Virus record (IMG/VR): IMGVR_UViG_3300010373_000136
Location: 1 to 24,174 of that record
Direction: 5' to 3' (one strand)
Length of the DNA: 24,174 nt
Source: a virus
Shown here: piece after piece, positions 1-24,174 of the stretch
How the letters are laid out: each line of letters begins with the position of its first letter
How positions within the stretch are numbered: position 1 is the stretch's first letter
Position numbers and translations under genes: made by a program
The notes under the pieces: generated by a model
The model's input: only the letters and a program-made list of their open reading frames with translations
Databases searched by the model: none
What the model was told of the DNA's origin: nothing

Positions 1-123
1 CTTTGTTCTCAGATGCAATTTGTCTTGATCCTTCGCCTTGCGGAGCAATTCGACAAGCGAATGCAAATCATCAAGGTTGTCGGCAGGGTTGCTTGATGCT
101 TTGCTCTCAGCTTCTTTTAACGC
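1..123. repeat. Terminal direct repeat, left copy (circular contig overlap)
   Basis: Bases 1-123 are identical to 24052-24174. The overlap lies inside the recombinase gene and keeps its reading frame: 1425 bases on the left and 183 unique bases on the right join into one 535-codon frame. This fits an assembly overlap of a circular or circularly permuted molecule of 24,051 bp better than a biological terminal repeat. Confidence 0.95.
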
Positions 124-1425
124 ATTTTCAACCTCGGCTAGTTCCTTGCTTTTGGATCGGAGAAGTTGCATCAAATGAGGCTCAACTCCGTTTTCATCCA
201 TATCTTTCTGTAGCATTTCGCAATCCCTGCGCAGAGCCTTCACCTTGCCATCAAGAACGCTCACTTCATCCTCGGCGTTAACCTTTGTCTCTCCGGTCAA
301 CTCATGTGCCTTGATTTCATAGAGTCTATCGAGTATCGCGTTCTCGATATGGGCATAGGGGAAAGTTGCTCTATCGGCGTCTTCCTCTCCTCTTTGAGCC
401 TTTGCCGTCTGAATGATCGTCCGATTCCAGTTAGGTTGATCCTTCTTTCTGGCTTTGTTCGTGAGATGGTACTTGCTACCATCTTGAACGGACACCATTA
501 AGCCACTAAAGAGATTGGCAACTTGCTCGCCTTTCCTTCCGCGATGAATTTTCCTAGATGTTAAAGCCGCTTGTGCGCGGTAGAAAGTTTCATCGCTGAT
601 AACGCGGGGGAAGTAGTCAGGAATTACCTTGCCTACAGGAGTAGGCTTGCCGTCTACCATCTCGCAAGGTTGAAACTCGCCTAAGACATTGCGATTGCGG
701 AGCAACTTTCCAATGCGCGGACGATTCCAATTGAGACTATTGCGGCGGACATGGGGAGGTTTGATGCCTCGTCGGTATAGTTCCTCGGTGATGCTATCGA
801 GTCCGTATCCATCAATGCACAATTGAAAGATCGTCTCAACAAGCCGCACCATATCGGGGAGGACTTCCCATTTTAACCGATCCGCTGACAACTTGAGCCA
901 GAAAGGAGCCTTTCCGGTCAACTTGCGAGTGTTAGCCTCGGCTCGCCGTCCGTCCCAGGCTTCTTTCGCACGGTGAGACTTCATGGAGGATTCTTCATGG
1001 GCGCGGCAGAGCGTTAACACGATTTCCAGAGCAAGGAAGGTATCGCCTGCGCTCTCTGCGGTATACTCGCGCTCCGGTTGAAGAGTCACAATGGAGATGC
1101 CAGCGCTGAGAATTTGATTGACAAGGGAGGCTCCGTCTAGCGGCTTCTGCCTGGAGAGCCGATCAAGCGATTCAAGGATGAGGACTGAGCCGGACGGGAC
1201 TTTCCCCGCTTTGATTTGTTCAAGGAACATGGATAGCGCTGCTCCCTCCCGCAAATGCCGTCCGTGGAACGCCGATTTGCCGTGATCGGCTTTGAGGGAG
1301 TTGTCTAGGGTCAACTCAAGATGGCGAGCGAGGTAAGCATCTCTCAGCTTGAGTTGTCGTCTAACGCTGTCTCCCTTGGCTTGTTCCGTTGACGAAAACC
1401 GTAGGTAACTGTACGCTCGCTTCAT
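1..1425 (-). CDS. Large serine recombinase (integrase), N-terminal 475 codons; continues at 24051
   Basis: A site-specific recombinase of the large serine family, likely the phage integrase. Joined across the contig ends it is 535 aa, a normal length. Resolvase domain about 1-150: YLRFSSTEQ gives the catalytic Ser11 and Arg9, and LESLDRLSRQ (84-93) carries the conserved arginines of the active site. The recombinase domain follows at about 165-290 (NWNRPRIGKLLRNRNVLGEF). The zinc-ribbon region (about 304-345) is recognisable from NLFSGL and FPYAHIENAIL, but all four expected cysteines are missing. A coiled-coil stretch (about 385-470) follows. The start ATG at 1425 is chosen because the family motif begins five residues later and an AGGAG site lies upstream. 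It stands alone behind its own promoter. No excision factor is recognised. High confidence in the family; target site unknown. Confidence 0.95.
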   Translation of the reverse strand, partial: MKRAYSYLRFSSTEQAKGDSVRRQLKLRDAYLARHLELTLDNSLKADHGKSAFHGRHLREGAALSMFLEQIKAGKVPSGSVLILESLDRLSRQKPLDGASLVNQILSAGISIVTLQPEREYTAESAGDTFLALEIVLTLCRAHEESSMKSHRAKEAWDGRRAEANTRKLTGKAPFWLKLSADRLKWEVLPDMVRLVETIFQLCIDGYGLDSITEELYRRGIKPPHVRRNSLNWNRPRIGKLLRNRNVLGEFQPCEMVDGKPTPVGKVIPDYFPRVISDETFYRAQAALTSRKIHRGRKGEQVANLFSGLMVSVQDGSKYHLTNKARKKDQPNWNRTIIQTAKAQRGEEDADRATFPYAHIENAILDRLYEIKAHELTGETKVNAEDEVSVLDGKVKALRRDCEMLQKDMDENGVEPHLMQLLRSKSKELAEVENALKEAESKASSNPADNLDDLHSLVELLRKAKDQDKLHLRTK

Positions 1426-6389: not shown

Positions 6390-7926
6390 TGAACAAGCCG
6401 CATTAAGAGTCCGCAAATTCATAGAGACATTTTGCCGCCAATCCAAGGGCAAGTTTGCCGGTCAACCTCTCTCCCTTCTTACTTGGCAATGGGAAGATGT
6501 AATCAAGCCTCTGTACGGCTGGAAACGTGCCGATGGTACGCGGAAGTATCGACAAGCCGGAATATGGCTTCCCAAGAAGAACGGTAAGTCAACGCTCGCC
6601 GCAAGTCTGGCTCTCTACCATCTCATTGCGGACGGAGAACAGGGAGCCGAGGTTTACATTGTCGCAAACGATCAACAGCAAGCCGGTATCGTCTACTCCG
6701 AAGCTGTCAACATGGTGGATCAATCGCCATTGTTGGCGAAGAGACTGGACATTAGAAAGAGCCAAAAGAAAATCCTTCATGCTGAGACAAGATCAATCCT
6801 CCGCGCACTCAGTAGCGAGAAGTCCGGCAAACATGGTTACAACTCAAGCCTCGTCCTTGTCGATGAAGTTGCGTTCTTGAAAGACCGCGAACTATGGGAC
6901 GTTCTCCGCTACAGCACGGCATCCCGCGAGCAACCTTTAATCATCACCATTTCAACGGCTGGATACCTGGCGAGCGAATCAATCGGTAAAGAGTTGTACG
7001 ACTATGCGAAGAACGTGAAGGAAGGAAAGATCAAGGACGAACATTTCCTCCCTTGCATCTACGAAGCTGACGCGGACGGAGATTTCCGAGACTCCGAACA
7101 ATGGTACAAAGCGAACCCATCCCTCGGCGTTACATTGTCCGAAGTCGAATTCAAGGAAGCTGTCAAGGAAGCTGAGTCCGACCCAAGAAAAGAAGCCAAC
7201 CTAAGAACGCTCCGTCTCAACCAATGGCTCGGAAGTGCGGCGCAATGGCTCTCAACTCCCCTATGGGACTCTTGCGGCAAACCGTTCGCCGAGGATGCCT
7301 TACATGGAGCCGAGGCATTCGTCGGACTGGACTTAGCTAGGAAGCATGACCTTGCCGCCTACGTCCTTCTCTTCCACCAGGGCGGACTCTACTACTTGCT
7401 CCCGCGTTTCTTCATCCCCAGAGAGAACGCCATTAGGAAAGAGCAAGTAGACCATGCTCCGTACATGACATGGGCAAAGCAAGGACTCCTAACGCTCACC
7501 GATGGAGACGTTATCGACTACTCGTTTATCAGGGAGTCCTTGAAGAAAGACAAAACCCAATATGACATTAAGGAAATCGGCTATGATCCTTACAACGCCG
7601 AACAACTTTGCAATCAACAACTCCGATTAGAAGATGGTTTCGAGGTTGTCGAGATTAAACAGACCATGCCGTTCCTTGCTCCCGCTACCTCCATGTTTGA
7701 AAGGCTCTTGAAGGAAAAGAAGATTCGCCACAATGGTAATCCTGTCCTACGTTGGCAAGCTGGAAATGTTGCTGTCCGTCAAGATGCCAACCAAAACATT
7801 ATGATAGACAAACTCAAATCTACCTCAAGGATCGACGGCATAAGCGCCGCAATCATGGCGCTACAGAGACAGATTAACGCGCCGTCTCAACCTCAGATGC
7901 CTCGAATATGGAGTTTCGATTACTAA
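6367..7926 (+). CDS. terL: Terminase large subunit, HK97/Terminase_1 type
   Basis: The 519-aa motor and nuclease that pumps DNA into the prohead and cuts it. ATPase domain: an adenine-binding-like Q near LLTWQW (38-43), Walker A LPKKNGKST (68-76), Walker B LVLVDE (162-167) and coupling motif ITISTAGY (193-200). RNase-H-like nuclease domain: metal aspartates in GLDLARKHD (Asp322), GYDPYN (Asp407) and RIDGISAAIMAL (Asp490). Length and order of motifs are normal and the gene appears intact. It begins inside the DUF3820 gene, and the portal frame overlaps or abuts its end. The presence of P27 TerS, HNH and this TerL type favours cos packaging. Confidence 0.97.
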   Translation: MTCPYTFDEQAALRVRKFIETFCRQSKGKFAGQPLSLLTWQWEDVIKPLYGWKRADGTRKYRQAGIWLPKKNGKSTLAASLALYHLIADGEQGAEVYIVANDQQQAGIVYSEAVNMVDQSPLLAKRLDIRKSQKKILHAETRSILRALSSEKSGKHGYNSSLVLVDEVAFLKDRELWDVLRYSTASREQPLIITISTAGYLASESIGKELYDYAKNVKEGKIKDEHFLPCIYEADADGDFRDSEQWYKANPSLGVTLSEVEFKEAVKEAESDPRKEANLRTLRLNQWLGSAAQWLSTPLWDSCGKPFAEDALHGAEAFVGLDLARKHDLAAYVLLFHQGGLYYLLPRFFIPRENAIRKEQVDHAPYMTWAKQGLLTLTDGDVIDYSFIRESLKKDKTQYDIKEIGYDPYNAEQLCNQQLRLEDGFEVVEIKQTMPFLAPATSMFERLLKEKKIRHNGNPVLRWQAGNVAVRQDANQNIMIDKLKSTSRIDGISAAIMALQRQINAPSQPQMPRIWSFDY

Positions 7927-7934
7927 ATACCACA

Positions 7935-9590
7935 ATGTTTAATTGGCTTACGAATTGGTTCAAGGGCAAAGAACAACGCTCTCTTGAAAATCCCGCTGTC
8001 CCGTTGTGGACTCCAACGGCTTACGATTACCTCGTAGGGCGCAGAAGTAGCGCAGGCGTTCCGGTCAACCGTCAATCCGTCCTTGGTATTACTCCCCTTT
8101 GGCGCGGCGTCAATCTCATCTCTCAGAAGGTTGCACGTCTCCCGCTGAACGTCTACAAGAAGAACAAGGACGGCGGAAGAGAAATAGACGTTGAACATCC
8201 GGCACAATGGCTCTTGGCTTGCAGACCATCGGCTCTCTATACGCCATTCTCTTTCAAACAAACGATGGTCTATCATGCGCTTCTTCATGGCAACGCCTAC
8301 GCCTACATTTTTCGTCAAGAGTTTGGCGAGCCGGAAGAGTTGTTGATTCTCAATCCCGATTACACTTTCCCAGCGCTGGACAATGGGAAACTCTGGTATG
8401 TAACGAGGATGAACAACACGGACAGGAAGCTACTTCCCGAAAACGTCTTTCATCTCAAAGGTTTGTCCGATGATGGCATTGTTGGACATAGCGTTATCGA
8501 CGTATTAAGAGAGGCTCTTGGTTTGACAATGGCTCAACAGCGTTACGCCTCGACGTTCTTCCGCAACGACGGCTCGCCTGGTCCTCTCATTCTGAAAACG
8601 CCAAACTTCTTGAAGGATGACGAATACAGGAAACAATTCAGAGAGCAATGGAGCAAGATTCACGAAGGACTTGATAACAAACATCGTGTCGCAATCTTGG
8701 AGAACGGACTAGAACCTGTTGTCAACGAGATTGACCACGAAAAGCAGCAATTCATAGAGAGCCGTCAATTCTCCATCATTGACATTGCTAATGTGGTTGG
8801 TGTTCCTCCGCACAAGTTAGGAGCCAATGTCACAACGTCCTATGGCTCTCTTGAGTCCGAGGAAAGAGCGTTCCTTAACGATACCTTGGATGGATGGTTG
8901 ACGGCGATTGAAGAAGAAGCAGAACTAAAGTTGCTTACAACCAGGCAAGTAACAAGCGCTTCAAGGTTTATCGAGTTTGACAGACGATCCCTAGAGCAAG
9001 CCGACTACAAGACGCGCTCCGAGTCCTTGATAGGGGAAGTTAACAATGGCATCCGCACAGAGAACGAAGCAAGAGCGCTCCTCAACCTTCCGTCCGTTGG
9101 TTCAGACGGAGATAGGCTCCGTATGCCGTCCAACATTACGTTCATCGACCTTGTAGGACCAAAAGACGATCCGGCAACCGATGAACCGGAGCCGATGGTT
9201 GAAACCAGTCCGGCAACGGGAGACACCGACGAAAAAGAGCCTGTGAATACCGATCCGAACGGCGCAGGCATCGGCGTTGATGCGCCAGACTCTAACCGAT
9301 TCAAGGCGCTTCTCAAGAGCGTTGTAGAACGTGCCTGTAAACGCATTAGGAAAGCGATGGAGGCGAGAAAACATGCGGAGCCGTCCCAAGTCCTAGCCGA
9401 ACATCAAAGCGTTGTAATCGAGAGCCTGGAGCCGGCAACCGACCATGCCGCCGCGTTCGTGGATGAATGGTTCAAGGGACTCGCCGAGGAATGCCGCGCT
9501 GTCCTTCCCGAACAACTCGATTCCGTCCTAGATCGGATCGACGCAAACGCCATTACAGAGAGGTTGATGAAACATGGAAACGAGAACTAA
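7935..9590 (+). CDS. Portal protein, HK97 family, with C-terminal extension
   Basis: 551 aa from the chosen ATG. The dodecameric ring at the head vertex through which DNA passes and to which the connectors attach. Family marks: VLGITPLWRGVNLISQKVARLPLNVYK, HALLHGNAYAYIFR, and SIIDIANVVGVPPHKLG ... YGSLESEERAFLNDTL. An upstream in-frame ATG (7908) lies inside terL; 7935 is preferred because it gives the typical MFNWLTNWF start and follows ACTAAATACC by three bases. The conserved core ends near residue 405. The remaining ~145 residues comprise an acidic Pro/Thr-rich linker and a helical block (FKALLKSVVERACKRIRKAME and onward), beyond the usual ~400-430 aa. The extension may contact scaffold or protease; unknown. 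Confidence 0.95.
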   Translation: MFNWLTNWFKGKEQRSLENPAVPLWTPTAYDYLVGRRSSAGVPVNRQSVLGITPLWRGVNLISQKVARLPLNVYKKNKDGGREIDVEHPAQWLLACRPSALYTPFSFKQTMVYHALLHGNAYAYIFRQEFGEPEELLILNPDYTFPALDNGKLWYVTRMNNTDRKLLPENVFHLKGLSDDGIVGHSVIDVLREALGLTMAQQRYASTFFRNDGSPGPLILKTPNFLKDDEYRKQFREQWSKIHEGLDNKHRVAILENGLEPVVNEIDHEKQQFIESRQFSIIDIANVVGVPPHKLGANVTTSYGSLESEERAFLNDTLDGWLTAIEEEAELKLLTTRQVTSASRFIEFDRRSLEQADYKTRSESLIGEVNNGIRTENEARALLNLPSVGSDGDRLRMPSNITFIDLVGPKDDPATDEPEPMVETSPATGDTDEKEPVNTDPNGAGIGVDAPDSNRFKALLKSVVERACKRIRKAMEARKHAEPSQVLAEHQSVVIESLEPATDHAAAFVDEWFKGLAEECRAVLPEQLDSVLDRIDANAITERLMKHGNEN

Positions 9591-10170
9591 TCAAAGCCAA
9601 GTGACGATTGAAACCCGCGCCGATGGTAGCCGCAAGATCAAAGGACTTGCCTCCCCGGTCTACAACGGCAGCGCAGGGACGGAGTACGAATTGATGGACG
9701 GAGTTTTCGAGCGCTTCATGCCTGGTGCCTTTGATCGACACTTACAGACCGCGCCCGAAATCATCTCCACCTACAACCACGATAAGAGCAAGGTACTAGG
9801 TAGGACTCCGCACACGTTAAGAGTATGGAGCGAAAGAGACGGGTTGCATTACGAGGTTGACTTGCCCGAAACTTCTTTCGGCAAGGACTTGTTAATCTCC
9901 ATCGAAAGAGGAGATGTTAAATTCTCTAGTTTCGGCTTCATTCCATCAAAGGCGAAATGGACAAGGGACGGCGATAAGGAAGTGAGAGAGATACATGAGG
10001 CAAAGTTAATCTCCGTCGATCCTGTGACGGTTCCGGCTTATGGTGGATCAAACGTAGGACTCCGAAGCGCCGAGGAACGTGCCGCCATTGAAGCTGAACG
10101 ACAAGCCTGGCTCGCCGAGGTTGAGACGGAGAAGAGAGAAGCAAGGTTGAAGGAAATCTTGAGCAAGTGA
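9574..10170 (+). CDS. Prohead (capsid maturation) protease, HK97 family
   Basis: A 198-aa serine protease that removes the scaffolding part of the capsid protein during head maturation. Expected residues are visible: His69 in YNHD, the Ser118/Ser119 pair in KFSSFGF, and the conserved VDPVTVPAY strand (148-156). GLASPVYN and FERFMPGAFDRHL are typical of the N-terminal half. The C-terminal 35 residues are a charged helix (EERAAIEAERQAWLAEVE), perhaps a self-cleaved tail. It overlaps the portal gene by 17 bases and precedes the capsid gene, the standard HK97 order. Confidence 0.95.
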   Translation: METRTNQSQVTIETRADGSRKIKGLASPVYNGSAGTEYELMDGVFERFMPGAFDRHLQTAPEIISTYNHDKSKVLGRTPHTLRVWSERDGLHYEVDLPETSFGKDLLISIERGDVKFSSFGFIPSKAKWTRDGDKEVREIHEAKLISVDPVTVPAYGGSNVGLRSAEERAAIEAERQAWLAEVETEKREARLKEILSK

Positions 10171-10251: not shown

Positions 10252-11613
10252 ATGAACAGTGTAGAACTACGCGAAAAACGCGGTCAACTCGTTAAGGAAT
10301 TGCAATCCCTTGTAACCAAGGCGAAAGAAGAAAAGCGCTCCTTGACCGGAGAAGAACAACAGATTTTCGACCGCATCGACGGCGAGCAGGAACGCCTCAA
10401 GACGGAGATTGACGGACTTGAGCGCATCGAGAAATTCGACGGCATGAGCCTTGAAGAGTCTCGCCAGCAAATCCGCTCTCAGTCCCGTAAGCCGGAACCA
10501 ATCATCAAGACGGAGGACAGGAAGAAAGCCTTGTCCGGTTGGTTCACTTTCGGCTCTCCAAGCTGTAAGCGCGAATGGCGCGAAGCTGCCGATAAGATGG
10601 GCGTAAATCTTGCATCCCCATATATCCGCGTTCCGCTCTTGAAGAACGCTCCCAAGCAGGAAGAGACGCGCGAGAACATCCGCGCCAAGGTCGAGGAACG
10701 TGCCCAGACCGTAGGAACCCTTACGGCTGGTGGAGACTTGGTAGCAACCGATATTCAGCTTATGTCAGAGGTTGAGGTAGCTCTCAAATACTACGGCGGC
10801 ATGTTGCAAACCGCGCGTGTTCTCCGTACCGAAACCGGAGCCAACCTCCCGATTCCAACGACAGACGATGTTGCGAACGCAGGCGTTATCATCGGTGAAG
10901 GTAGCAGCATTACCGAGGTAGATGAAACCTTCGGGCAAATCATCCTCAACGCCTACAAGCTGACAAGTGGAACCGTCCAAGTCTCTTGGGAATTGGCGCA
11001 GGATGCCGCCGTTGACCTACCGGAATTCCTCGGTCAACGCCTTGGTATTCGCCTGGGTCGAGGCATCAACAACTATTTCACCAACGGAACCGGCTCCGGT
11101 GGAAGTCCAGCACAACCGCGCGGCTTCATTCTTGATGCCACTAGCGGCGCAACGTCTCAGACCGCAGGCGGCACTACGCTTGTGTATGCTGACTTGGTTA
11201 ATCTGCAAATGGCTCTTGATCCTGCTTATTGGGAGGGCGCACGTTGGCAGTTTAACAGTAACACCATGAAGAAGTTGAAGTTGTTGGTTGACGGCAATGG
11301 TCGTCCATTGTGGCAACCAGGCTTGCAAGGTTTCGCGGAAAAGAATGAGGATACCATTTTGGGTTTCCCATTCACGTTGAATCAAGACATGCCGAACATG
11401 GGTTCTAGTGTTGTAGGACCATTGGCGTTCGGACGATTCGATAAGTACCTCGCGCGTATCGTGGCAGGCGATGATTCAGGCGTTGAACTGATTCGTTTGA
11501 ATGAGCGTTACGCGGATGTTGGGATGATTGCTTTCATCGCATTCGTTCGTATCGACGGACGATTGATTGACGCCGGTACTCATCCTATTCAAGTCCTAAC
11601 TTGCGACTACTAA
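10252..11613 (+). CDS. Major capsid protein, HK97 fold
   Basis: A 453-aa capsid subunit. Residues 1-80 are a charged coiled coil (delta/scaffolding domain: LREKRGQLVKELQSLVTKAK and onward) that the protease should remove; the maturation site is probably between about 80 and 165. The mature part starts around TLTAGGDLVATDIQLMSEVEVAL and contains typical HK97 elements: GANLPIPTTDD, KLTSGTVQVSWELAQDAAVDLPEFLGQRLGIRLGRGINNYFTNGTG (two pieces of the spine helix), ARWQFNSNTMKKLKLL, and the C-terminal P-domain strands GRFDKYLARIVAGDDSGVELIRLNERYADVGMIAFIAFVRIDGRLID. No decoration-type insertion is evident. A strong terminator follows, so capsid mRNA may be partly separated from the downstream genes. 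Confidence 0.97.
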   Translation: MNSVELREKRGQLVKELQSLVTKAKEEKRSLTGEEQQIFDRIDGEQERLKTEIDGLERIEKFDGMSLEESRQQIRSQSRKPEPIIKTEDRKKALSGWFTFGSPSCKREWREAADKMGVNLASPYIRVPLLKNAPKQEETRENIRAKVEERAQTVGTLTAGGDLVATDIQLMSEVEVALKYYGGMLQTARVLRTETGANLPIPTTDDVANAGVIIGEGSSITEVDETFGQIILNAYKLTSGTVQVSWELAQDAAVDLPEFLGQRLGIRLGRGINNYFTNGTGSGGSPAQPRGFILDATSGATSQTAGGTTLVYADLVNLQMALDPAYWEGARWQFNSNTMKKLKLLVDGNGRPLWQPGLQGFAEKNEDTILGFPFTLNQDMPNMGSSVVGPLAFGRFDKYLARIVAGDDSGVELIRLNERYADVGMIAFIAFVRIDGRLIDAGTHPIQVLTCDY

Positions 11614-13353: not shown

Positions 13354-13729
13354 CATTGACCTACGAAGTTATCTCGCCACGAACCTCGGCATTGGCGTTG
13401 AACAAAACAAGATTGCGGAGGACTACAACACTTCTCCCGCGCTGATGTTTCAGCGTAGACCATCGACACAAGACTTGTTTCTTAATGGAACCCCAAGTAT
13501 CAACGAGACAAACTTTGACATTGAAATCTACGGCATCGACATAGACGCCGTGGAAACGACAACCGATACTGCCAAAACTTTGTTGAACGGCTTTAAGGGA
13601 ACGATGGGAAGTACCTTTGTCCTCGGCGCGTTCGTAACCGACCATGAGGACGATTACACGCCGAAAGTCGAATTGCAAAACGATGAAGGCTTAAATGTCT
13701 GCACGTTCGCTCTACAAATCATTTACTGA
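13343..13729 (+). CDS. Tail terminator / completion protein (DUF3168-like)
   Basis: 128 aa beginning MQIDIDLRSYLATNLGIGV, with SINETNFDIEIYGIDIDAVETTTDTAKTLLNGFKG in the middle and a C-terminal VCTFALQIIY strand. This layout fits the tail terminator group that caps tail length and joins the head. Gene order (after gp10-like, before the tail tube) supports it. Its stop shares a base with the start of the methyltransferase gene (TGATG), so translation is coupled. Confidence 0.75.
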   Translation: MQIDIDLRSYLATNLGIGVEQNKIAEDYNTSPALMFQRRPSTQDLFLNGTPSINETNFDIEIYGIDIDAVETTTDTAKTLLNGFKGTMGSTFVLGAFVTDHEDDYTPKVELQNDEGLNVCTFALQIIY

Positions 13730-14295
13730 TGCTCTACGAAAACCTTCCTACAACCAAATTCCGCACACTGGTAATCGATCCGCCCTGGAACATCGGCGTA
13801 ACTTCGATGCGTTATAAGCACCACAAACGACCCAGGCACTTACCCTATCCAACGCTGCCAATCGACGAAATCAAGACGTTCCCTGTCCAGCAACTAGCAG
13901 AGGTTGGCGCACATGTCTACACATGGACAACAAACAAGATGTTGCCTGACACATTCGATGTTCTGAAAGCCTGGGGCGTGCGGTATCACCTGACAATGCC
14001 TCTCGTCAAGAAAAGCGGCATCGTAGGTGCAAACGGCTATGTTTTCGCCGCCGAATACTGCTTGCTAGGGTTCTTCGGAAAGCCCATGTTGCGGTTCGAG
14101 TCCATCGGCAAGTTGAATTGGCTCGTTACAAGTCCAGTACGAGGTAAGCACAGCGTAAAGCCCGATTCGTTCTATTTGTTGGTTGAAACCATGTCGCCTG
14201 GTCCTTATCTGGACTGCTTTGCGAGAAGACAGCGGGCTAACTGGACTGTATGGGGGAATGAAGTTGATAGCGACATAATTCTTAAAGCATCGTGA
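13729..14295 (+). CDS. MT-A70 family N6-adenine DNA methyltransferase
   Basis: A 188-aa S-adenosylmethionine-dependent adenine methyltransferase. Catalytic DPPW (17-20) in RTLVIDPPWN; YPTLPIDEIKTFPV, HVYTWTTNKMLPDTFDVLKAWGVRYHLTMPLVKKSG and the C-terminal KPDSFYLLVETMSPGPYLDCFARR...NWTVWGNE all match the MT-A70 group used by phages to protect their DNA from host restriction. Length is normal. Its location, coupled to the tail terminator gene and 12 bases before the tail tube gene, is odd for a DNA modification gene. No partner restriction gene is visible. The target sequence cannot be inferred. Confidence 0.93.
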   Translation: MLYENLPTTKFRTLVIDPPWNIGVTSMRYKHHKRPRHLPYPTLPIDEIKTFPVQQLAEVGAHVYTWTTNKMLPDTFDVLKAWGVRYHLTMPLVKKSGIVGANGYVFAAEYCLLGFFGKPMLRFESIGKLNWLVTSPVRGKHSVKPDSFYLLVETMSPGPYLDCFARRQRANWTVWGNEVDSDIILKAS

Positions 14296-16663: not shown

Positions 16664-17674
16664 ATGGCAGTAGTCGGTATCGCCCAAATGCGCCCTGGAT
16701 ACCCAAGGGCGAGTTTTGAATTAGGCATTCAGACAATTATCTGTAAGTACCTTGTCGTTACGGACAGCGTAGAAGATGGTCCTATCACCGTTGTCCTTGC
16801 GCCCGGACTTCCGATCCTCTTTCAACCCTACCAATTTGGTAGCGAATATCATCCCTATTGTCGTTGTCGATCCGTGGTCCCTGAGCGCGTCAAGGACGGC
16901 TCGCCTGCTTGGGATGTAACCTGCACCTTCACCACGCCTCAGATAAAAGGAGGCGCACATGGAGACGGCGGCAATAGCGACAGCGGATCGGATGGAGGCG
17001 CGGACAAAGGCTCAGACGGTGGCGGCACAAAGGAAGAGACGGACGGACAGTTTGAAAACCCGCTCTTGGAAATCCCAGAGGTAGAAACCCATTTCGAGAC
17101 TTCCCAAATCCCCATCATGGGCGTCTACGATACCTCGCAAAACCCCGCTGTGTTCAAGCCGGCTCAAGCATCAACCGGCGAGATATTCGTTCCTCCTCCG
17201 CACATGGAGAATGCGTCTCTTATCTTGACCATAACGAGAAATGAGGCATTGTCCGCAGCGCATCCCCAGCTTGCCGCCACCTACATGAATACTTGCAACT
17301 CCGATACCTTTTGGGGTTGTAGTGCCGGACAGGTTAAATGTCAAAACATCACGGTTCAAAGGCAAGTGAAACAACTACCTGGAGGAACAATCTTTCCGTA
17401 CCTCAGAGTTACTTACATCTTCAAGATTAAAGACACATGGGACTTGAAGATTCTGGATAGTGGCTCTTGGTACTGGTTCCAAAAGAGCCAATCCGAACCC
17501 AAGGTAAAGCAGCGTTTCTTGTCTGAGGATAAACAACCCATCCAAGGACTACTTGACGGCAACGGCAACAAGTTAGCCGATGGAGGGACTCCGGTATGGC
17601 TGACGATCAGACCTTATAACCGTCTCGCCTTTGGAGCCTTGGGACTACCGCAAAGTTTCGCACAAGTACAGTGA
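16664..17674 (+). CDS. Distal tail / tip structural protein, unnamed family
   Basis: 336 aa with GGAGG four bases before the ATG. The N-terminal part (1-95) is beta-rich. A Gly/Ser/Asp linker (about 97-130: GDGGNSDSGSDGGADKGSDG) follows, then a C-terminal domain beginning FENPLLEIPEVETHFET, with SLILTITRNEALSAAHPQLAATYMNTCNSDTFWG and LRVTYIFKIKDTWDLKILD. I associate this C-terminal pattern with tail proteins of planctomycete phages. Position after the tape measure suggests the distal tail or baseplate hub. No enzymatic motif is seen. Confidence 0.7.
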   Translation: MAVVGIAQMRPGYPRASFELGIQTIICKYLVVTDSVEDGPITVVLAPGLPILFQPYQFGSEYHPYCRCRSVVPERVKDGSPAWDVTCTFTTPQIKGGAHGDGGNSDSGSDGGADKGSDGGGTKEETDGQFENPLLEIPEVETHFETSQIPIMGVYDTSQNPAVFKPAQASTGEIFVPPPHMENASLILTITRNEALSAAHPQLAATYMNTCNSDTFWGCSAGQVKCQNITVQRQVKQLPGGTIFPYLRVTYIFKIKDTWDLKILDSGSWYWFQKSQSEPKVKQRFLSEDKQPIQGLLDGNGNKLADGGTPVWLTIRPYNRLAFGALGLPQSFAQVQ

Positions 17675-18068: not shown

Positions 18069-20177
18069 ATGGCAGTCTATGGATTTGATGCACAAGACGT
18101 ACAACGGCTACGCAATCTGCTAATTGCTTGGGAGCAAGGCAGATTGAACGTACAGGCTCCGCATCAATATCCAGTTAATCCGAATGGTCAAGATACCTTC
18201 CTCGGCTACATTCCGCCGTATGATGCCAGTGTTGCAAACTCTGGCTCGATTCAAACGCAAGCAACCGGACTCGTTTATCTTGTTGATGTTTCGCCTAACG
18301 ATGTTCCTGCTACGCCAGACCTTACGAAACTGGACTACCTCGATACATCGACGCCGTACACTCTCTACAACACAACCGATACGGTTCTTGTTGCCGGTTC
18401 CTACGTCCCGATGGTACGGGAGCCGTCCTCTGGTCTGTTCATGCCGGTCGGACCACGGCTCGCCTTTGTCGAGGCTACTTCCTCGACGGCAAGCCTTATC
18501 AGCTTGTCGGACGGCGGCACACTAACGGCGTTCCCTGCCGTAGTCCAGCAATTCAACCCCACAAACGGCGGTTTCTCCGCTGGCTCCGCTGGCTGGATTT
18601 ATGAAATCAACGGCAACAAGCCGTCCTCTGGGACTCGCTATCCATGTCGCCTCATAGCTCAAGACACTTGCGGCGGGTTTGTATGGGGAACCTTCATTTG
18701 CTGCGCGACGACCACAACAACGGCGGCACCAACAACGACAACAACGGCAAGCGGCACCACAACATTAGCACCATGTACAGGCTCTTGTAAGTGGACTTGG
18801 AGCGCGTCTAGTTCGTCTTGGAGTCTCGACAGCAATACTTGTGCAGAGGCGACAACAACAACGAGTAGCACTACCTCGACAACTACCAGTACAACCACCA
18901 GCACGACCACAACCACAAGCGGAGGATCGACAACCTGTAGTCCTGTCATTCCGACAACAACTACAACTACCAGTACAACAAGTACAACAAGCACAACAAC
19001 GACAACGCCGGCTCCCTCAAACTGTCAGTGTGTCTATCCGACCTTCTGCGGATCGACAGACGGCGAATGCACCTACACATTCTGCACCAATGGGACAACA
19101 AGCGCTCCGATTAACTGCACAGGCACGACCACCACAACAACAAGCAGCGGATCGACCACAACGACAACGGCGGCACCATGTACAACGCCTGGTCCTGGGA
19201 CTGGTCCCGAAGGTTGCATCAGTCATTCGCCTTGCGTTACCTGTGGATATGTCTGGCATTCATGCCAATCTCAAGGCAACCCTTGCTGTACGCCTTATGG
19301 AGAGTGTGTGTGCGTATCGGAGCCTCCCCCTACTTGTGGCGGTGATTGCGAATGGACTTGCTATGCCGATGCCGGATGGGTTTTAAGTGGTGGAGGTTGT
19401 GCGGGAGGCGGTTGCGGGGCTTGTGGTGCATGTGGTTGTGAACCCCCAAGCATTGATTGTTCTTGCGGATCGAAGACAAAAACACCGTGCGGCTTTATGT
19501 GCGGTTCCGGTGGAGGCGGTACGACTATCAATCCGTGCGCCCCAACAACAACAAGCAACCCATCGACAACAACAACTTGCGCCCCTTGCAAGTGGGAATG
19601 CGACGGAACGAATTGGAATCAAACCTCAAGTTGCGCGGCGGGTTGTGGAGGGTGTTGTCCTCCTGTGTTTGCTTGTACCGAAGCATGTCAGACGGCGGAA
19701 ACTCCGTGTCTCGATCCGGCGTTGTGTACAACCACAAGTACAACAACGACAAGTACGACCACTAGCAGCACAACGGAAGGTCCGACAACAACGACAACGA
19801 CAACAACCTCGACCACAACCACGACGGGAACAACAACAACCTGTAACCCATCTGCTAATGATTGCCTATGGAACTGTATTAGTGGCTCGTGGCAGCAGGC
19901 GTTGATTTGTCCTGCCGATTGTCCGCAAAGCTGTAGTGAGCCTGGTTGCCCATGCGATGCCTCGCTTGAAGGGCAGCAATGGGCGAGCGATTGCAACGGC
20001 AATGTCTTGAACAATCCATGCTCGACAACATCCTCGCCGTGCGGTTCGTGTCAATACAAGTGGGACGCATCCAACAATGTTTGGAATCTTTCCTCTGGTA
20101 ATTGCTCTTGTGGCGGATGTACTCCACCGTATACGACTGGCACTTACGACGGACAGATTGCCTTTGTGAACTGCTAA
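18069..20177 (+). CDS. Thr-rich, Cys/Trp-modular surface protein (candidate tail fibre, glycan acceptor)
   Basis: 702 aa. Residues 1-210 are a folded N-terminal domain (MAVYGFDAQDVQRLRNLLIAWEQGRL and onward), probably the attachment part. The rest alternates almost pure Thr/Ser tracts (about 213-232, 262-315, 355-370, 495-503, 540-590) with cysteine-rich modules sharing a C-x-W-x6-9-W-x4-6-C pattern (near 236, 423, 504, 597 and 659). No signal peptide. The look is that of an extracellular mucin-like stalk with small disulfide domains, unusual for a virion protein since disulfides form outside the cell. Position after tail genes and AAGGGGATGA before the ATG support a late virion protein. The ACA/ACG repeats also keep other frames open; those are by-products. 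Function as receptor-binding fibre or decoration is inferred. Confidence 0.85.
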   Translation: MAVYGFDAQDVQRLRNLLIAWEQGRLNVQAPHQYPVNPNGQDTFLGYIPPYDASVANSGSIQTQATGLVYLVDVSPNDVPATPDLTKLDYLDTSTPYTLYNTTDTVLVAGSYVPMVREPSSGLFMPVGPRLAFVEATSSTASLISLSDGGTLTAFPAVVQQFNPTNGGFSAGSAGWIYEINGNKPSSGTRYPCRLIAQDTCGGFVWGTFICCATTTTTAAPTTTTTASGTTTLAPCTGSCKWTWSASSSSWSLDSNTCAEATTTTSSTTSTTTSTTTSTTTTTSGGSTTCSPVIPTTTTTTSTTSTTSTTTTTPAPSNCQCVYPTFCGSTDGECTYTFCTNGTTSAPINCTGTTTTTTSSGSTTTTTAAPCTTPGPGTGPEGCISHSPCVTCGYVWHSCQSQGNPCCTPYGECVCVSEPPPTCGGDCEWTCYADAGWVLSGGGCAGGGCGACGACGCEPPSIDCSCGSKTKTPCGFMCGSGGGGTTINPCAPTTTSNPSTTTTCAPCKWECDGTNWNQTSSCAAGCGGCCPPVFACTEACQTAETPCLDPALCTTTSTTTTSTTTSSTTEGPTTTTTTTTSTTTTTGTTTTCNPSANDCLWNCISGSWQQALICPADCPQSCSEPGCPCDASLEGQQWASDCNGNVLNNPCSTTSSPCGSCQYKWDASNNVWNLSSGNCSCGGCTPPYTTGTYDGQIAFVNC

Positions 20178-20185
20178 AATCAATA

Positions 20186-20220
20186 GCAACTTCCTCCTAT
20201 ATACAACATGAGGAAGTTGC
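20186..20220 (+). promoter_or_regulatory. Hairpin enclosing the start codon of the glycosyltransferase gene
   Basis: GCAACTTCCTC (20186-20196) pairs perfectly with GAGGAAGTTGC (20210-20220); the G of the ATG (20208-20210) is the first base of the right arm. There is no purine-rich ribosome site, and CTATATAC lies in the loop. It may act as attenuator or start-codon lock. Confidence 0.6.
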
Positions 20221-22001
20221 TTATTGGAATGGCTCATTACGATGATTTCGACGGAGTATACTTTACCGTTCAAAGTCTACGCCTACATCATCCCGAAGTA
20301 ATCAATGACATTGAAGTTGCCGTCATCGACAACAATCCAACGAGCGGACATGCAAACGCTGTCAAGAATTTGCTCAACTGGATTAAGGATATTCCCGCTT
20401 ACTACATCCCATATACCGAAGTAGGCGGAACATCCGCACCTAGAAACCATCTCTTCACGGTCGGTACGGCTCCCGCTGTCATGTGCATTGATCCACATAT
20501 CTTGTTTACGCCTGGATCAATCAAACGCTTAATCGACTGGTATGACGGACATCCTGATACCAAGGACTTGTACCAGGGACCAATGATCTACGATGATCTA
20601 AAGAACTATGCAACCCATTTCGACGATAGATGGGATGCCGAAATGTGGGGTAAATGGAACACGGCGTTTTATGCTGAACTTGAAAAGGTAACTACGCCAT
20701 TTTACGAGATGCCTCCGGTTGTCGAAATGCGAGATGGTAAAACCTTCACCCTACCGGACTATCGGGAAACGAACCGTAAAGCCATCCGTCCCGCTGGCGA
20801 AAACGCCGATGATCCACCGTTTGAAATACCATCAATGGGTTTAGGATGCTTCACCAGTAGAAGAGATGCTTGGCTAGGGTTTAACAAGGACTTCCGAGGC
20901 TTTGGTGGCGAAGAATGGTATATCCATGTCAAATACAGACAAGCCGGACATAAAACAATCTGTCTACCCTTCCTGCGCTGGCTCCATCGTTTCGGTAGAC
21001 CGAACGGCGTTAAGTACAACCTTCAAGCCTGGGACAAGTGTAGAAACTACGTCATAGGACACAAGGAACTAAACCTCGACCTACAACCCGTCTACGATCA
21101 TTTCGTCAAGACGGGCAAAATCTCTGAGGACAATTGGAAGGCTCTGCTAGACGGAGCAACTCAACCCGTTTCAACTTCGGGTTGTGGATGCAACAAGCCT
21201 CCAACCGCAATTAGCCTTGAAGACGCCTACAACAAAGCCGCGAACACTCCCTCCGACATTAACGAGCATGTTCCGACGTTGAAGGAATTGGCGAGCAAAT
21301 GCGATCATGTAACGGAGTTTGGCGTTAGAACAGGCGTTAGCACTACTGGACTCTTGGCGGCACAACCTAAACGCCTCGTCTCCTACGATCTAAACGACAG
21401 TCCGCAAGCCAGAGCATTAACGAACGTCAAAGGCAAAACGGAGTTTGACTTTATCATCGGAGATAGTCACAATGTAGACATAGAGGAAACCGACATGCTT
21501 TTCATTGACACGAAACATACCGGAGAGCATGTCTATGGAGAATTAACGCGGCACCATGCAAAGGTCAAGAAATGGATTGCCTTCCACGATACGGAGATAT
21601 TCGGCGAGAAGGGAGAGGACGGCTCGCCTGGCTTGCTTCACGGTCTGAGGCGCTTTTTGAAGGAAAATCCCGAATGGAGCGTTATCCGCCATGATGCCAA
21701 CAACCACGGATTCACCGTGATAAGCCGGCTCGCCGAGGACAAGCCAGAGTTACCATCCGGCATCAAGCAGGCATGGAATTTTGCCAAGGCAATGAGCAAG
21801 CATGTTGCCAACGGTCTAAAGGTTTTGACCGAAGAGAAGGTACAGGCTCGCCTCGATCATTGTTGGATTTGCCCATTGCGTAAGGATACCCGTTGTACCA
21901 AGTGCGGATGTTTCCTTGAAGAACGTCCCGATGGAGGACCAGGCAAGGCTCTCCTACCGAAAGAATCTTGTCCGCTAGGACATTGGCACGCGGAGGAATG
22001 A
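20208..22001 (+). CDS. Glycosyltransferase - methyltransferase - zinc domain fusion
   Basis: 597 aa, three parts. (1) About 1-310: GT-A glycosyltransferase of the GT2 kind. KLLIGMAHYDD opens the first strand, Asp41 and IDPH (94-97, DxH in place of DxD) are the likely sugar-nucleotide and metal residues, and GGEEW (233-237) is the acceptor-side acidic motif. (2) About 335-510: class I SAM methyltransferase, with TEFGVRTG (369-376) as the SAM loop, SYDL (392-395), FIDT (432-435) and FHDTEIFGE (459-467), resembling the Methyltransf_24 group. (3) About 550-595: six-cysteine zinc-binding tail (CWIC, CTKCGC, CPLGHW). One protein that adds a sugar and could methylate it suggests a capped glycan. Next to the Thr-rich protein and a GNA1-like gene. 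High confidence in domains, moderate in role. Confidence 0.88.
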   Translation: MRKLLIGMAHYDDFDGVYFTVQSLRLHHPEVINDIEVAVIDNNPTSGHANAVKNLLNWIKDIPAYYIPYTEVGGTSAPRNHLFTVGTAPAVMCIDPHILFTPGSIKRLIDWYDGHPDTKDLYQGPMIYDDLKNYATHFDDRWDAEMWGKWNTAFYAELEKVTTPFYEMPPVVEMRDGKTFTLPDYRETNRKAIRPAGENADDPPFEIPSMGLGCFTSRRDAWLGFNKDFRGFGGEEWYIHVKYRQAGHKTICLPFLRWLHRFGRPNGVKYNLQAWDKCRNYVIGHKELNLDLQPVYDHFVKTGKISEDNWKALLDGATQPVSTSGCGCNKPPTAISLEDAYNKAANTPSDINEHVPTLKELASKCDHVTEFGVRTGVSTTGLLAAQPKRLVSYDLNDSPQARALTNVKGKTEFDFIIGDSHNVDIEETDMLFIDTKHTGEHVYGELTRHHAKVKKWIAFHDTEIFGEKGEDGSPGLLHGLRRFLKENPEWSVIRHDANNHGFTVISRLAEDKPELPSGIKQAWNFAKAMSKHVANGLKVLTEEKVQARLDHCWICPLRKDTRCTKCGCFLEERPDGGPGKALLPKESCPLGHWHAEE

Positions 22002-22003
22002 CA

Positions 22004-22420
22004 ATGATTCGACCGCTCTATGGTCCCGATTTCAACGACGATTTCTTTGCAACGCTCGCCGCGCTCTCGGAAACATCAATGCCCAGAGCCAAGGCAGGCG
22101 AGATACTACGCAAGCGTATGGCAATGGGAATCAAAACCTTTGTCTACCTTGAGGGAGAGCGTATTATCGGAACGGCATCTATCTTTATCGAGCCTAAGTT
22201 TCTCCACAACGGCGGCAAGGTTGCTCATATAGAAGACATTGCCGTTCATCCCGATTATCAGCGCCGAGGTATTGGCTCCGCTCTCGTTGAACATCTTCTC
22301 AACCTGGCGAAGCAAGAGGGAGCCTACAAAGCGATTCTCTCTTGTCAAATGAAGAATCTAATCTTCTATGTTAATCAAGGTTTCAAGCAACACGAAATAT
22401 CTCTCAGAAAGGACTTATGA
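22004..22420 (+). CDS. GNAT acetyltransferase, GNA1-like (glucosamine-6-phosphate N-acetyltransferase type)
   Basis: 138 aa. The acetyl-CoA loop QRRGIGSA (86-93) marks a GNAT fold. The run GTASIFIEPKFLHNGGKVAHIEDIAVHPDYQ and later CQMKNLIFYVNQGFKQHEISL closely follow the pattern of GNA1 enzymes, which turn glucosamine-6-phosphate into GlcNAc-6-phosphate for UDP-GlcNAc synthesis. Bacteria normally use GlmU for this step. The start ATG 22004 is chosen because GGAGG (21992-21996) is seven bases upstream; the earlier ATG (21998) is too close. It follows the fusion gene by two bases. Exact substrate is inferred from sequence pattern. Confidence 0.85.
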   Translation: MIRPLYGPDFNDDFFATLAALSETSMPRAKAGEILRKRMAMGIKTFVYLEGERIIGTASIFIEPKFLHNGGKVAHIEDIAVHPDYQRRGIGSALVEHLLNLAKQEGAYKAILSCQMKNLIFYVNQGFKQHEISLRKDL

Positions 22421-22932
22421 AACTCTTACCAGTTACAGATAGGAAGAAAGAAGTTGTCGCGCATGCGATGGTAGATGATGACCTTTTTCCTCATCTCTCG
22501 AAAATGAGGTGGTACGACAATGGGTGGGGTTATCCCCATACTAATCACCAAAACGATGATGGAAGTAGCATCCATGTTTCCTTGCATTCAATTGTTTTCA
22601 AAGACAAGTATGGGCGGCATCCGCTTCCGGGCTACGAGATTGACCACATAGACCAGAACAAGCTAAATGCACAGCGTTCTAATTTGCGTGAGTTAACCAG
22701 AAGTTTCAACTGCGCCAACAAACCAAAACAACCAAGAAATACTTCCGGTTACAAAGGAGTCTCTTGGAATAAGAACGAACAGAAATGGGAGACACGAATT
22801 CAAGTGAACAGGAAACTTGTCTTCTTGGGCTACCACACAGATAAACATGAGGCAGCAAGAGCCGTTAACCGTGCATATGAGAAACATTTCCCCGGAATAT
22901 CAATTCCGAATCCAATCGCAGAGGTGTTATGA
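22417..22932 (+). CDS. HNH homing endonuclease with AP2 DNA-binding domain
   Basis: 171 aa. HNH nuclease core EIDHIDQNKLNAQRSNLRELTRSFNCANK (about 74-101) followed by an AP2 domain GYKGVSWNKNEQKWETRIQV...FLGYHTDKHEAARAVNRAY (about 111-155). This architecture is typical of free-standing phage homing endonucleases that spread by double-strand-break repair. It overlaps both neighbours by four bases (ATGA) and has AAAGGA before the start, so it is neatly inserted without breaking the operon. Probably selfish, not part of the glycan pathway. Confidence 0.95.
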   Translation: MKLLPVTDRKKEVVAHAMVDDDLFPHLSKMRWYDNGWGYPHTNHQNDDGSSIHVSLHSIVFKDKYGRHPLPGYEIDHIDQNKLNAQRSNLRELTRSFNCANKPKQPRNTSGYKGVSWNKNEQKWETRIQVNRKLVFLGYHTDKHEAARAVNRAYEKHFPGISIPNPIAEVL

Positions 22933-23615
22933 AAGCAAGTTGTATCTGTCCGACCTACGGGAGATGCCCGAACAAGCAATATCTACTTGAAGAAGCAATC
23001 GAAAGTTTCTTGCGCCAAGATCACAAGGACAAAGAATTGATCGTCCTAAACGATTGTCCGCGTCAGGAATTGATATGCAACGCGCCAGATGTTGTCATTG
23101 TCAATTACCCTGAACGCTTTACGAGTCTAGGCGAGAAACACAACAAGATGGTATCTCTCACTTCGGGAGATGTTGTCTTTCCTTGGGATGATGATGATAT
23201 ATCTTTACCTCATCGCATAAGCCAAGGCATCAAACATATCGGGAAAGCCGACTACTGGAATCCTCATCGGCTCTACTATTGGGAAACTGGTAAGCCTCCG
23301 GTCGATGATCATGGTGGAGTTTGTCACAACGCCTCTTGCTATCTTCGCTCTGCCTGGGTGAGAGCGAACGGCTATCCGCATGTTTCAGGCGCACAAGACG
23401 CAAGGTTTGATGTTGCATTAAGACGCCTCAAAGTTGCTCCGCAATTGAAGGGCGAAAAGCCAGCGTACATTTACCGATGGGGAGTATCTGACAGGCACCT
23501 ATCGGGCTACCATGACCATGAAAAGGCTTATCGAGACATTGGCGAACTATTGATGCCGCAAGGTCGGTTTGTGTTGAAACCACATTGGCGCATAGATTAT
23601 ACCAAAAGCACTTGA
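22929..23615 (+). CDS. Family 2 glycosyltransferase
   Basis: 228 aa, GT-A fold. CICPTYGRCPNKQYLLEEAIESFLRQDHKDKELIVLND is the standard GT2 opening, and PWDDDDISLP (85-94) holds the metal-binding Asp cluster. The second half (SCYLRSAWVRANGYPHVSGAQDARFDVALRRL) corresponds to the acceptor region. No membrane segments, so it is a soluble enzyme acting in the cytoplasm. Last gene of the rightward operon; its TGA stop overlaps the -35 box of the next promoter. Confidence 0.92.
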   Translation: MKASCICPTYGRCPNKQYLLEEAIESFLRQDHKDKELIVLNDCPRQELICNAPDVVIVNYPERFTSLGEKHNKMVSLTSGDVVFPWDDDDISLPHRISQGIKHIGKADYWNPHRLYYWETGKPPVDDHGGVCHNASCYLRSAWVRANGYPHVSGAQDARFDVALRRLKVAPQLKGEKPAYIYRWGVSDRHLSGYHDHEKAYRDIGELLMPQGRFVLKPHWRIDYTKST

Positions 23616-23645: not shown

Positions 23646-23837
23646 CGTCGGGTTAAACCTGACAGCGAGGCGAACCCCATGCTATAAGGGGGCAAAACCG
23701 TCTGTTTGGTGGGATTAACAGAGAGTGAGGACAACTCCGATGGTCCTAGAGAGTTGCGAGCGATACAGCAACTAGGAGCTACCCGAAAGTAGCAACAAAG
23801 AAAGCCTCGGTGTCACACAACACCGAGGCTTTTCCTT
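23646..23837 (+). ncRNA. Candidate structured small RNA, about 190 nt
   Basis: Bounded by a strong promoter and an intrinsic terminator, without an ORF. Helices visible: CCCC/GGGG around ATGCTATAA (23675-23691), AGGAC/GTCCT (23728-23732 with 23743-23747), AGTTGC/GCAACT (23752-23757 with 23768-23773), GCTAC/GTAGC (23778-23782 with 23789-23793). AACTC in the loop at 23733-23737 can pair with GAGTT (23751-23755), a pseudoknot that competes with the AGTTGC stem. No known family recognised. It could be antisense-acting, protein-binding, or a phage-specific ornate RNA. Confidence 0.6.
23801..23834. terminator. Bidirectional intrinsic terminator
   Basis: Thirteen-base perfect stem (23801-23813 with 23820-23832), 6-base loop. 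Rightward it continues as TTTCC; leftward as TTTCTTTGTT. It ends both the small RNA and the recombinase transcript. Confidence 0.88.
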
Positions 23838-23868: not shown

Positions 23869-23880
23869 TTAGACTTTAGA
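23869..23880. repeat. Dispersed repeat TTAGACTTTAGA, copy F
   Basis: Contains the stop codon of the recombinase (its last codons read through the reverse complement, TCTAAAGTCTAA). Confidence 0.7.
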
Positions 23881-24174
23881 TTCTTGCGGAAGACTCATTT
23901 CGATTTCAACCTCTCCCTTGCTGTTCACGATGAAGCCAGTTACTCCACCCTCCTGATAGTCGATCCTTACGGTTGCATACCGATCTTTCCGAGTCCTTGC
24001 CTGAACGGAGATAGTGATACGCTCAACTAGGTTAGCAATCAATGCCTTTGCCTTTGTTCTCAGATGCAATTTGTCTTGATCCTTCGCCTTGCGGAGCAAT
24101 TCGACAAGCGAATGCAAATCATCAAGGTTGTCGGCAGGGTTGCTTGATGCTTTGCTCTCAGCTTCTTTTAACGC
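23869..24174 (-). CDS. Large serine recombinase, C-terminal part (same gene as at 1-1425)
   Basis: The last 102 codons including the stop; 24052-24174 duplicate bases 1-123. It covers the end of the coiled coil (LRKAKDQDKLHLRTKAKAL), then a beta-rich C-terminus (ERITISVQARTRKDRYATVRIDYQEGG) typical of the large serine recombinase tail. The gene converges on the rightward operon and shares its terminator. Confidence 0.93.
   Translation of the reverse strand, partial: ALKEAESKASSNPADNLDDLHSLVELLRKAKDQDKLHLRTKAKALIANLVERITISVQARTRKDRYATVRIDYQEGGVTGFIVNSKGEVEIEMSLPQESKV
24052..24174. repeat. Terminal direct repeat, right copy
   Basis: Identical to bases 1-123; see the left copy. Confidence 0.95.

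Follow-up and report, generated by a model that had tools for sequence, protein, structure and literature searches.

A threonine-rich gene and its neighboring glycosyltransferase

The DNA analyzed here (the window, all 24,174 nucleotides of the stretch from IMG/VR virus record IMGVR_UViG_3300010373_000136) is a circularised phage genome of 24,051 bp, positions 1-123 being identical to positions 24052-24174. Among its genes are an HK97-type capsid gene, a portal gene and one for a tape measure. We investigated a cassette of five adjacent, co-directional genes on the + strand at positions 18069-23615, which sits after the tail genes and which a first-pass annotation had read as a possible self-contained virion glycosylation system. 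All five open reading frames (ORFs) were found at these coordinates with the types assigned to them there: a Thr/Ser-rich protein, a fusion of a glycosyltransferase (GT) with a methyltransferase and a zinc-type tail, a GNA1-like acetyltransferase, a putative homing endonuclease and a second GT of family GT2.

The first gene (18069-20177, + strand) comes after the tape-measure and distal tail genes and encodes the proposed acceptor, a protein of 702 amino acids (aa) with 146 Thr (21%), 77 Ser (11%) and 63 Cys (9%). The N-terminal part of about 210 residues is tract-free; beyond it come six Thr/Ser tracts in alternation with modules that are small and contain Cys and Trp. Tracts 1 to 4 (aa 222-232, 262-289, 296-313 and 351-367) are encoded at 18732-19169, tracts 5 and 6 (aa 554-569 and 573-591) at 19728-19841. 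Within the tracts all four Thr codons are in use (44/18/16/5) and identical Thr codons never follow each other more than three times. Thus we concluded that the tracts are maintained by selection at the protein level. An origin of the tracts as a trinucleotide slippage artefact was rejected because the four Thr codons are intermixed. The protein had no match in Pfam, PHROG or NCBIfam, and its N-terminal part had no relative among viral contigs. Genes upstream of the Thr-rich gene in related loci match tape-measure, tail-spike and virion families; by gene order, the 702-aa protein would be part of the virion. A short Cys motif, P-x-F-C-G-x2-D/E-G-x2-T/I-x-T-x-C, is common to the Thr-rich proteins of loci L002, L026 and L062.

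The second gene (20208-22001, + strand) encodes a 597-aa protein composed of a GT-A domain (aa 1-320), an O-methyltransferase (about 337-516) and a Cys-rich zinc-type tail (about 542-597). Pfam matches to Glycos_transf_2 (17-137) and Methyltransf_24 (370-462) were both over the gathering score, the latter with 30.6 bits against 26.3. The methyltransferase domain aligned with an O-methyltransferase at Z 18.4 in VIA, and Methyltransf_24 is of the sugar-type, CmcI-like kind. Matches of the tail were weak, with DUF6171 under cut-off and phrog_13558 at 524-593 (E 1e-7). The protein has no strongly hydrophobic segment and no direct sequence match in the PDB.

An AlphaFold (AF2) model was confident across the GT and most of the methyltransferase. 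When residues 1-320 of the model were submitted to Foldseek, all of the 50 matches listed were polypeptide GalNAc-transferases of family GT27. VIA re-alignment to GalNAc-T2 gave a Z of 24.3 over 258 residues at 3.0 Å, while the next family among the matches listed, chondroitin polymerase, reached 18.9. The GT-A motifs are D95-x-H97, G233-G-E-E and H260. D95 and H97 form a DxH motif resembling the metal motif of GT27, whose human GalNAc-T2 and Toxoplasma GalNAc-T3 are the closest solved structures among the matches listed. After H260 the chain continues with F and then a basic residue, as in the HxFR motif of GT27; by this motif context H260 would correspond to the third metal-binding His of GT27.

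At the level of sequence the domain is about 14% identical to GT27. A profile match to GalNAc-T10 was obtained with E 0.0014 over residues 35-222, the catalytic half, and other GT2 enzymes scored better. With trimmed profiles the GT27 match was lost, and a residue-level alignment with GT27 was not obtained. The C-terminal ricin-type lectin domain of GT27 is missing from the 597-aa protein, in which the fused methyltransferase and zinc-type tail take that place. Because of the weak sequence support and the missing lectin domain we call the enzyme GT27-like rather than assigning it to GT27. It further differs from GT27 in that no signal peptide or membrane anchor is visible and in being encoded beside its proposed acceptor, whereas a Thr/Ser-rich acceptor would be a feature in common.

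Linkage of the glycosyltransferase family to threonine tracts

The family to which the GT domain belongs comprises 71 genes, which form 43 clusters when grouped at 70% identity. D95, H97 and H260 are invariant across 48 aligned sequences, down to 32% identity, and the motif GFGGEExxIHxKxR is present in most members, many of which stop after the GT domain. Searches with three different members found no match in 50,697 phage records, and PHROGs holds no family for them.

We scored a gene as carrying a Thr tract if at least 10 Thr occurred within 20 residues, and as upstream if it lay immediately upstream on the same strand. A Thr-tract gene was directly upstream of the GT in 29 of the 43 clusters and two genes upstream in two more, so that the search of relatives proposed in the first-pass annotation was positive. 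Across all loci not selected by Thr content, 49/68 adjacent genes carried a tract in comparison to 17/885 other genes of the same loci (Fisher p 1e-51, to be taken as a guide that overstates independence because the loci share ancestry to varying extents). The count was 0/160 for the genes of 13 arbitrary viral loci. The claim that a Thr-rich acceptor lies next to its own GT thus gained support from the linkage, along with the fold.

After masking of the tracts, 30 representative upstream proteins fell into 17 groups without detectable similarity to each other, the largest group holding six of the 30. The GTs of representative loci had a median identity of 39%. Since the putative acceptors are dissimilar outside the tracts while the GTs are conserved, the Thr tract is the shared feature, which argues for an enzyme-substrate relation over the inheritance of one gene pair.

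The pair of GT and Thr-tract gene occurred on viral contigs of very different size, some above 100 kb; hence, contrary to the first-pass annotation, there is nothing exceptional about a phage having this arrangement. L071 and L075, which by their terminase are the closest phage relatives, have the same order of tail gene, Thr/Cys-rich protein and GT with zinc-type tail. In the window a tail gene (16664-17674, + strand) precedes a 129-aa gene and the Thr-rich gene, and its homologue in L071 (1581-2453, E 2e-5) directly precedes the Thr-rich gene there. Two bacterial homologues, L049 (Saprospiraceae) and L056 (Pyrinomonadaceae), share the arrangement. In L049, a metagenome-assembled genome, positions 6700-9980 consecutively encode a Thr-tract protein with a Tat-like signal, a GT27-like enzyme and a sulfotransferase, the last downstream of the GT.

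The linkage was also examined in the reverse direction. A scan for ten consecutive ACN codons yielded 90 loci with a Thr-tract ORF. Among the genes next after these ORFs two belonged to the GT27-like family, while a second GT-A family lay directly after Thr-tract genes in 11/91 cases and once elsewhere in the loci (p 2e-12). Its AlphaFold model (predicted local distance difference test, pLDDT, 93) was nearest to glycogenin with a Z of 15.5; the family shares its fold with glycogenin and GT8-like GT-A enzymes and is absent from the window. No Pfam or NCBIfam match was found for it. In cultured Enterococcus and Lactococcus phages its members are annotated as hypothetical and are located right behind the major capsid or major tail gene. 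We consider them candidate virion glycosyltransferases. As two different GT families lie beside virion genes, and both often beside Thr tracts, glycosylation of virion proteins is the simplest common reading.

Members of the second family start with ...AQPxxxYYxWQVE... and carry DxD, GGAQ and HNAG motifs. They were found in L085, L095, L104, L117, L125, L135, L150, L157, L171, L179 and L198, and in the cultured phages GQ478081.1 (25916-26824, L217), MN689521.1 (5815-6681, L218) and MT939241.1 (74200-75069, L220).

Proposed tail decoration and alternatives

We favor, with a probability of about 0.7, the view that the cassette is a self-contained tail-decoration system in which the Thr tracts are mucin-like acceptors of the neighboring GT. 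The Thr/Cys-rich protein would be a tail-tip or fibre component with its Thr/Ser tracts as mucin-like domains. As for the 597-aa protein, its first domain would be a GT-A enzyme that is soluble, depends on metal and acts in the manner of a polypeptide GalNAc-transferase; it would put the first sugar from a host nucleotide sugar on Thr/Ser of the newly made neighbor protein in the cytoplasm. The 228-aa GT2 would probably add a further sugar, the fused methyltransferase would probably cap a sugar hydroxyl, and the acetyltransferase may tune the supply of amino sugars. What the analysis shows is the gene content, the coupling, the linkage across the GT family and the nearest fold; the transfer to peptide, this order of steps and the place in the virion are inferred, as is the function of the glycan, which might be shielding, protease resistance or adhesion. 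The first-pass annotation had named GlcNAc as the sugar, for which we found no support; the likelihood of GalNAc or of a different sugar is no lower.

The downstream genes fit such a scheme of extension and capping. The last gene of the cassette (22929-23615, + strand) encodes a 228-aa protein with a WDDDD motif that matches Glycos_transf_2 in Pfam; all its relatives at E<1e-48 lie in loci where the first GT is present too. In related loci a GT2 gene lies downstream of the GT in 13 of 40, and O-methyltransferase genes are found there as well. Thus the earlier proposal of extension and methyl capping stands as far as the recurrence of its genes is concerned. L038 has a GT29 sialyltransferase-type gene (10851-11414) and L039 a cytidylyltransferase gene (13615-14247) downstream of the GT, which suggests capping of a nonulosonic-acid type.

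The third gene (21998-22420, + strand; a 150-aa ORF as first called) is a GNAT acetyltransferase by Pfam. Its nine best PDB matches were GNA1 or of that type with E values of 6e-22 to 9e-13, clear of other GNATs. The sequence HIEDIAV is identical to that of the yeast and Aspergillus enzymes. The Asp of the ILD(C/S) motif in three GNA1s (Trypanosoma, Aspergillus and yeast), a candidate catalytic residue, is replaced by Ser in the phage protein, and no homologue was found in 15 phage relatives. For these two reasons the supply of GlcNAc-6-phosphate ascribed to this gene in the first-pass annotation is speculative; it is possible as an addition outside the conserved system.

Several points weigh against the tail-decoration system. 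The sequence similarity to GT27 is weak, the likeness is mainly one of predicted fold, and a fold does not prove an acceptor. Only the GT and the Thr-tract protein are conserved across relatives, the acetyltransferase is not. Furthermore, 12 of the 43 GT clusters have no Thr tract beside the GT. There are about 36 viral clusters, and by the strict criterion 8 of them have no neighbor with a Thr tract. The first-pass annotation had held that transferases occurring regularly without any Thr-rich protein would speak against it; such an arrangement was seen, though only in this minority. One clade of the GT family (L030, L041, L042 and L044) adjoins a nuclease-like gene and no Thr-tract gene, in a setting that resembles a DNA-metabolism region; the acceptor of this clade may differ.

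That the GTs and the methyltransferase alter a polymer of the host surface, as in serotype conversion or superinfection exclusion by a lysogen, with the place near the tail genes being a region of exchangeable genes next to the integrase, is unlikely. The phage does have a serine recombinase and the cassette ends next to its gene, a usual site of accessory genes, and two members of the GT family match a GtrB-like PHROG weakly. Yet neither a membrane segment nor a recognised flippase gene accompanies the GT, which lies behind a Thr-tract gene in most clusters, including some on contigs above 100 kb, and the Thr-tract genes mostly have no detectable shared sequence between groups. Slightly less likely still is that the GT acts on another virion protein (tail tube, baseplate or capsid) and that the Thr-tract protein is merely a neighboring fibre. 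Such acceptors have a precedent in mycobacteriophages, where according to PMC12619734 the glycans are on capsid and tail tube, and the second GT-A family of cultured phages adjoins major capsid or tail genes. On the other hand, the recurring neighbor of the GT27-like enzyme is defined by its Thr tract and not by homology, as the 17 groups indicate, and it is this gene, not a capsid or tail-tube gene, that the GT directly follows.

A modification of phage DNA, i.e. glucosylation of a hypermodified base, is very improbable. Phage GTs with DNA as their substrate have been described (Pyle 2024, as cited in PMC12619734) and the clade beside the nuclease-like gene would suit them, but the window showed no recognisable gene for base hypermodification, and the cassette lies in the tail region next to a Thr-tract protein. 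We give equally little weight to an inactive GT domain co-inherited with the Thr tracts in one structural module. The cluster counts are not fully independent and some acceptors are homologous, as in the group of six, which would suit such a module; an invariant D95, H97 and H260 in sequences as far apart as 32% identity is unexpected for a dead enzyme.

Self-encoded, mucin-like glycosylation of the tail is probably common and not unique to the phage studied here: the same gene pair is found in dozens of diverse phages, and therefore a sugar coat put on tail proteins by the phage itself is probably a feature of many phages. A broader view seems evenly balanced to us. It holds that phages own an autonomous mucin-type O-glycosylation, with a GT27-like initiator, GT2 extenders and methyl, sialyl-type or sulfo capping on Thr-tract tail proteins, that the pairing is widespread in uncultivated phages, is present in a small number of bacteria too and had more than one origin, involving different GT folds, and that the phage enzymes are perhaps relatives or forerunners of the eukaryotic polypeptide GalNAc-transferases.

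Few systems with glycosylated phage virions are known, and predicting the acceptor sites is difficult. In PMC12691614, PMC11652166 and PMC12619734, which cite Freeman 2023, glycosylation of mycobacteriophage virions is described as O-linked and carried out by phage GTs. Phage-encoded GTs and a virion protein as acceptor would be common to both systems. They differ in that capsid and tail-tube proteins of mycobacteriophages are reported there to bear the glycans at their C-termini, while here a dedicated Thr-tract, Cys-rich tail protein is the proposed acceptor and the initiator is GT27-like. The literature covered, to which most subscription papers do not belong, yielded no account of a pairing between phage Thr-tract proteins and a GT27-like enzyme. 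The position of this GT family directly behind a Thr-tract gene would provide a rule for reading from the genome both the phage protein that receives the glycan and the enzyme that attaches it. The rule predicts that phages with mucin-like tails are present in many metagenomes. Such tails may matter for adhesion to the host, resistance to proteases, recognition by the immune system and phage therapy. If the proposal is true, a GT27-like peptide glycosyltransferase exists in prokaryotic viruses, which bears on the origin of mucin-type glycosylation; being compact and soluble, such enzymes might also be of use as tools when proteins are to be O-glycosylated in E. coli.

Gene coupling and surroundings of the cassette

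The last four genes of the cassette are linked by ATGA overlaps. For the acetyltransferase the most likely start is the ATG at 21998, which follows GGAGGA and overlaps the GT stop, and not the TTG at 21968; the starts of the endonuclease gene at 22417 and of the second GT2 at 22929 show the same coupling. The endonuclease gene (22417-22932, + strand) encodes a free-standing protein of 171 aa with HNH_3 over cut-off and an AP2 match below threshold. The first-pass annotation had counted it among the five genes; it is present, and it is probably a mobile homing passenger rather than part of the system. It sits with exact ATGA overlaps on both sides, by which translation coupling is retained.

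The cassette terminates at a palindromic, terminator-like hairpin (23801-23836, + strand) common to the convergent recombinase gene. A terminator scan matched it on the - strand at 23832-23801; it is T-rich on the + strand too. The large serine recombinase gene spans the circular join (window 1-1425 and 23869-24174), and with it the phage is probably temperate. An MT-A70-type (adenine) methyltransferase gene is located at 13729-14295 of the window among head-tail connector and tail genes. Cellular homologues of the GT were found in assemblies of Saprospiraceae, Desulfobulbaceae, Myxococcales, Streptomyces and Pyrinomonadaceae.

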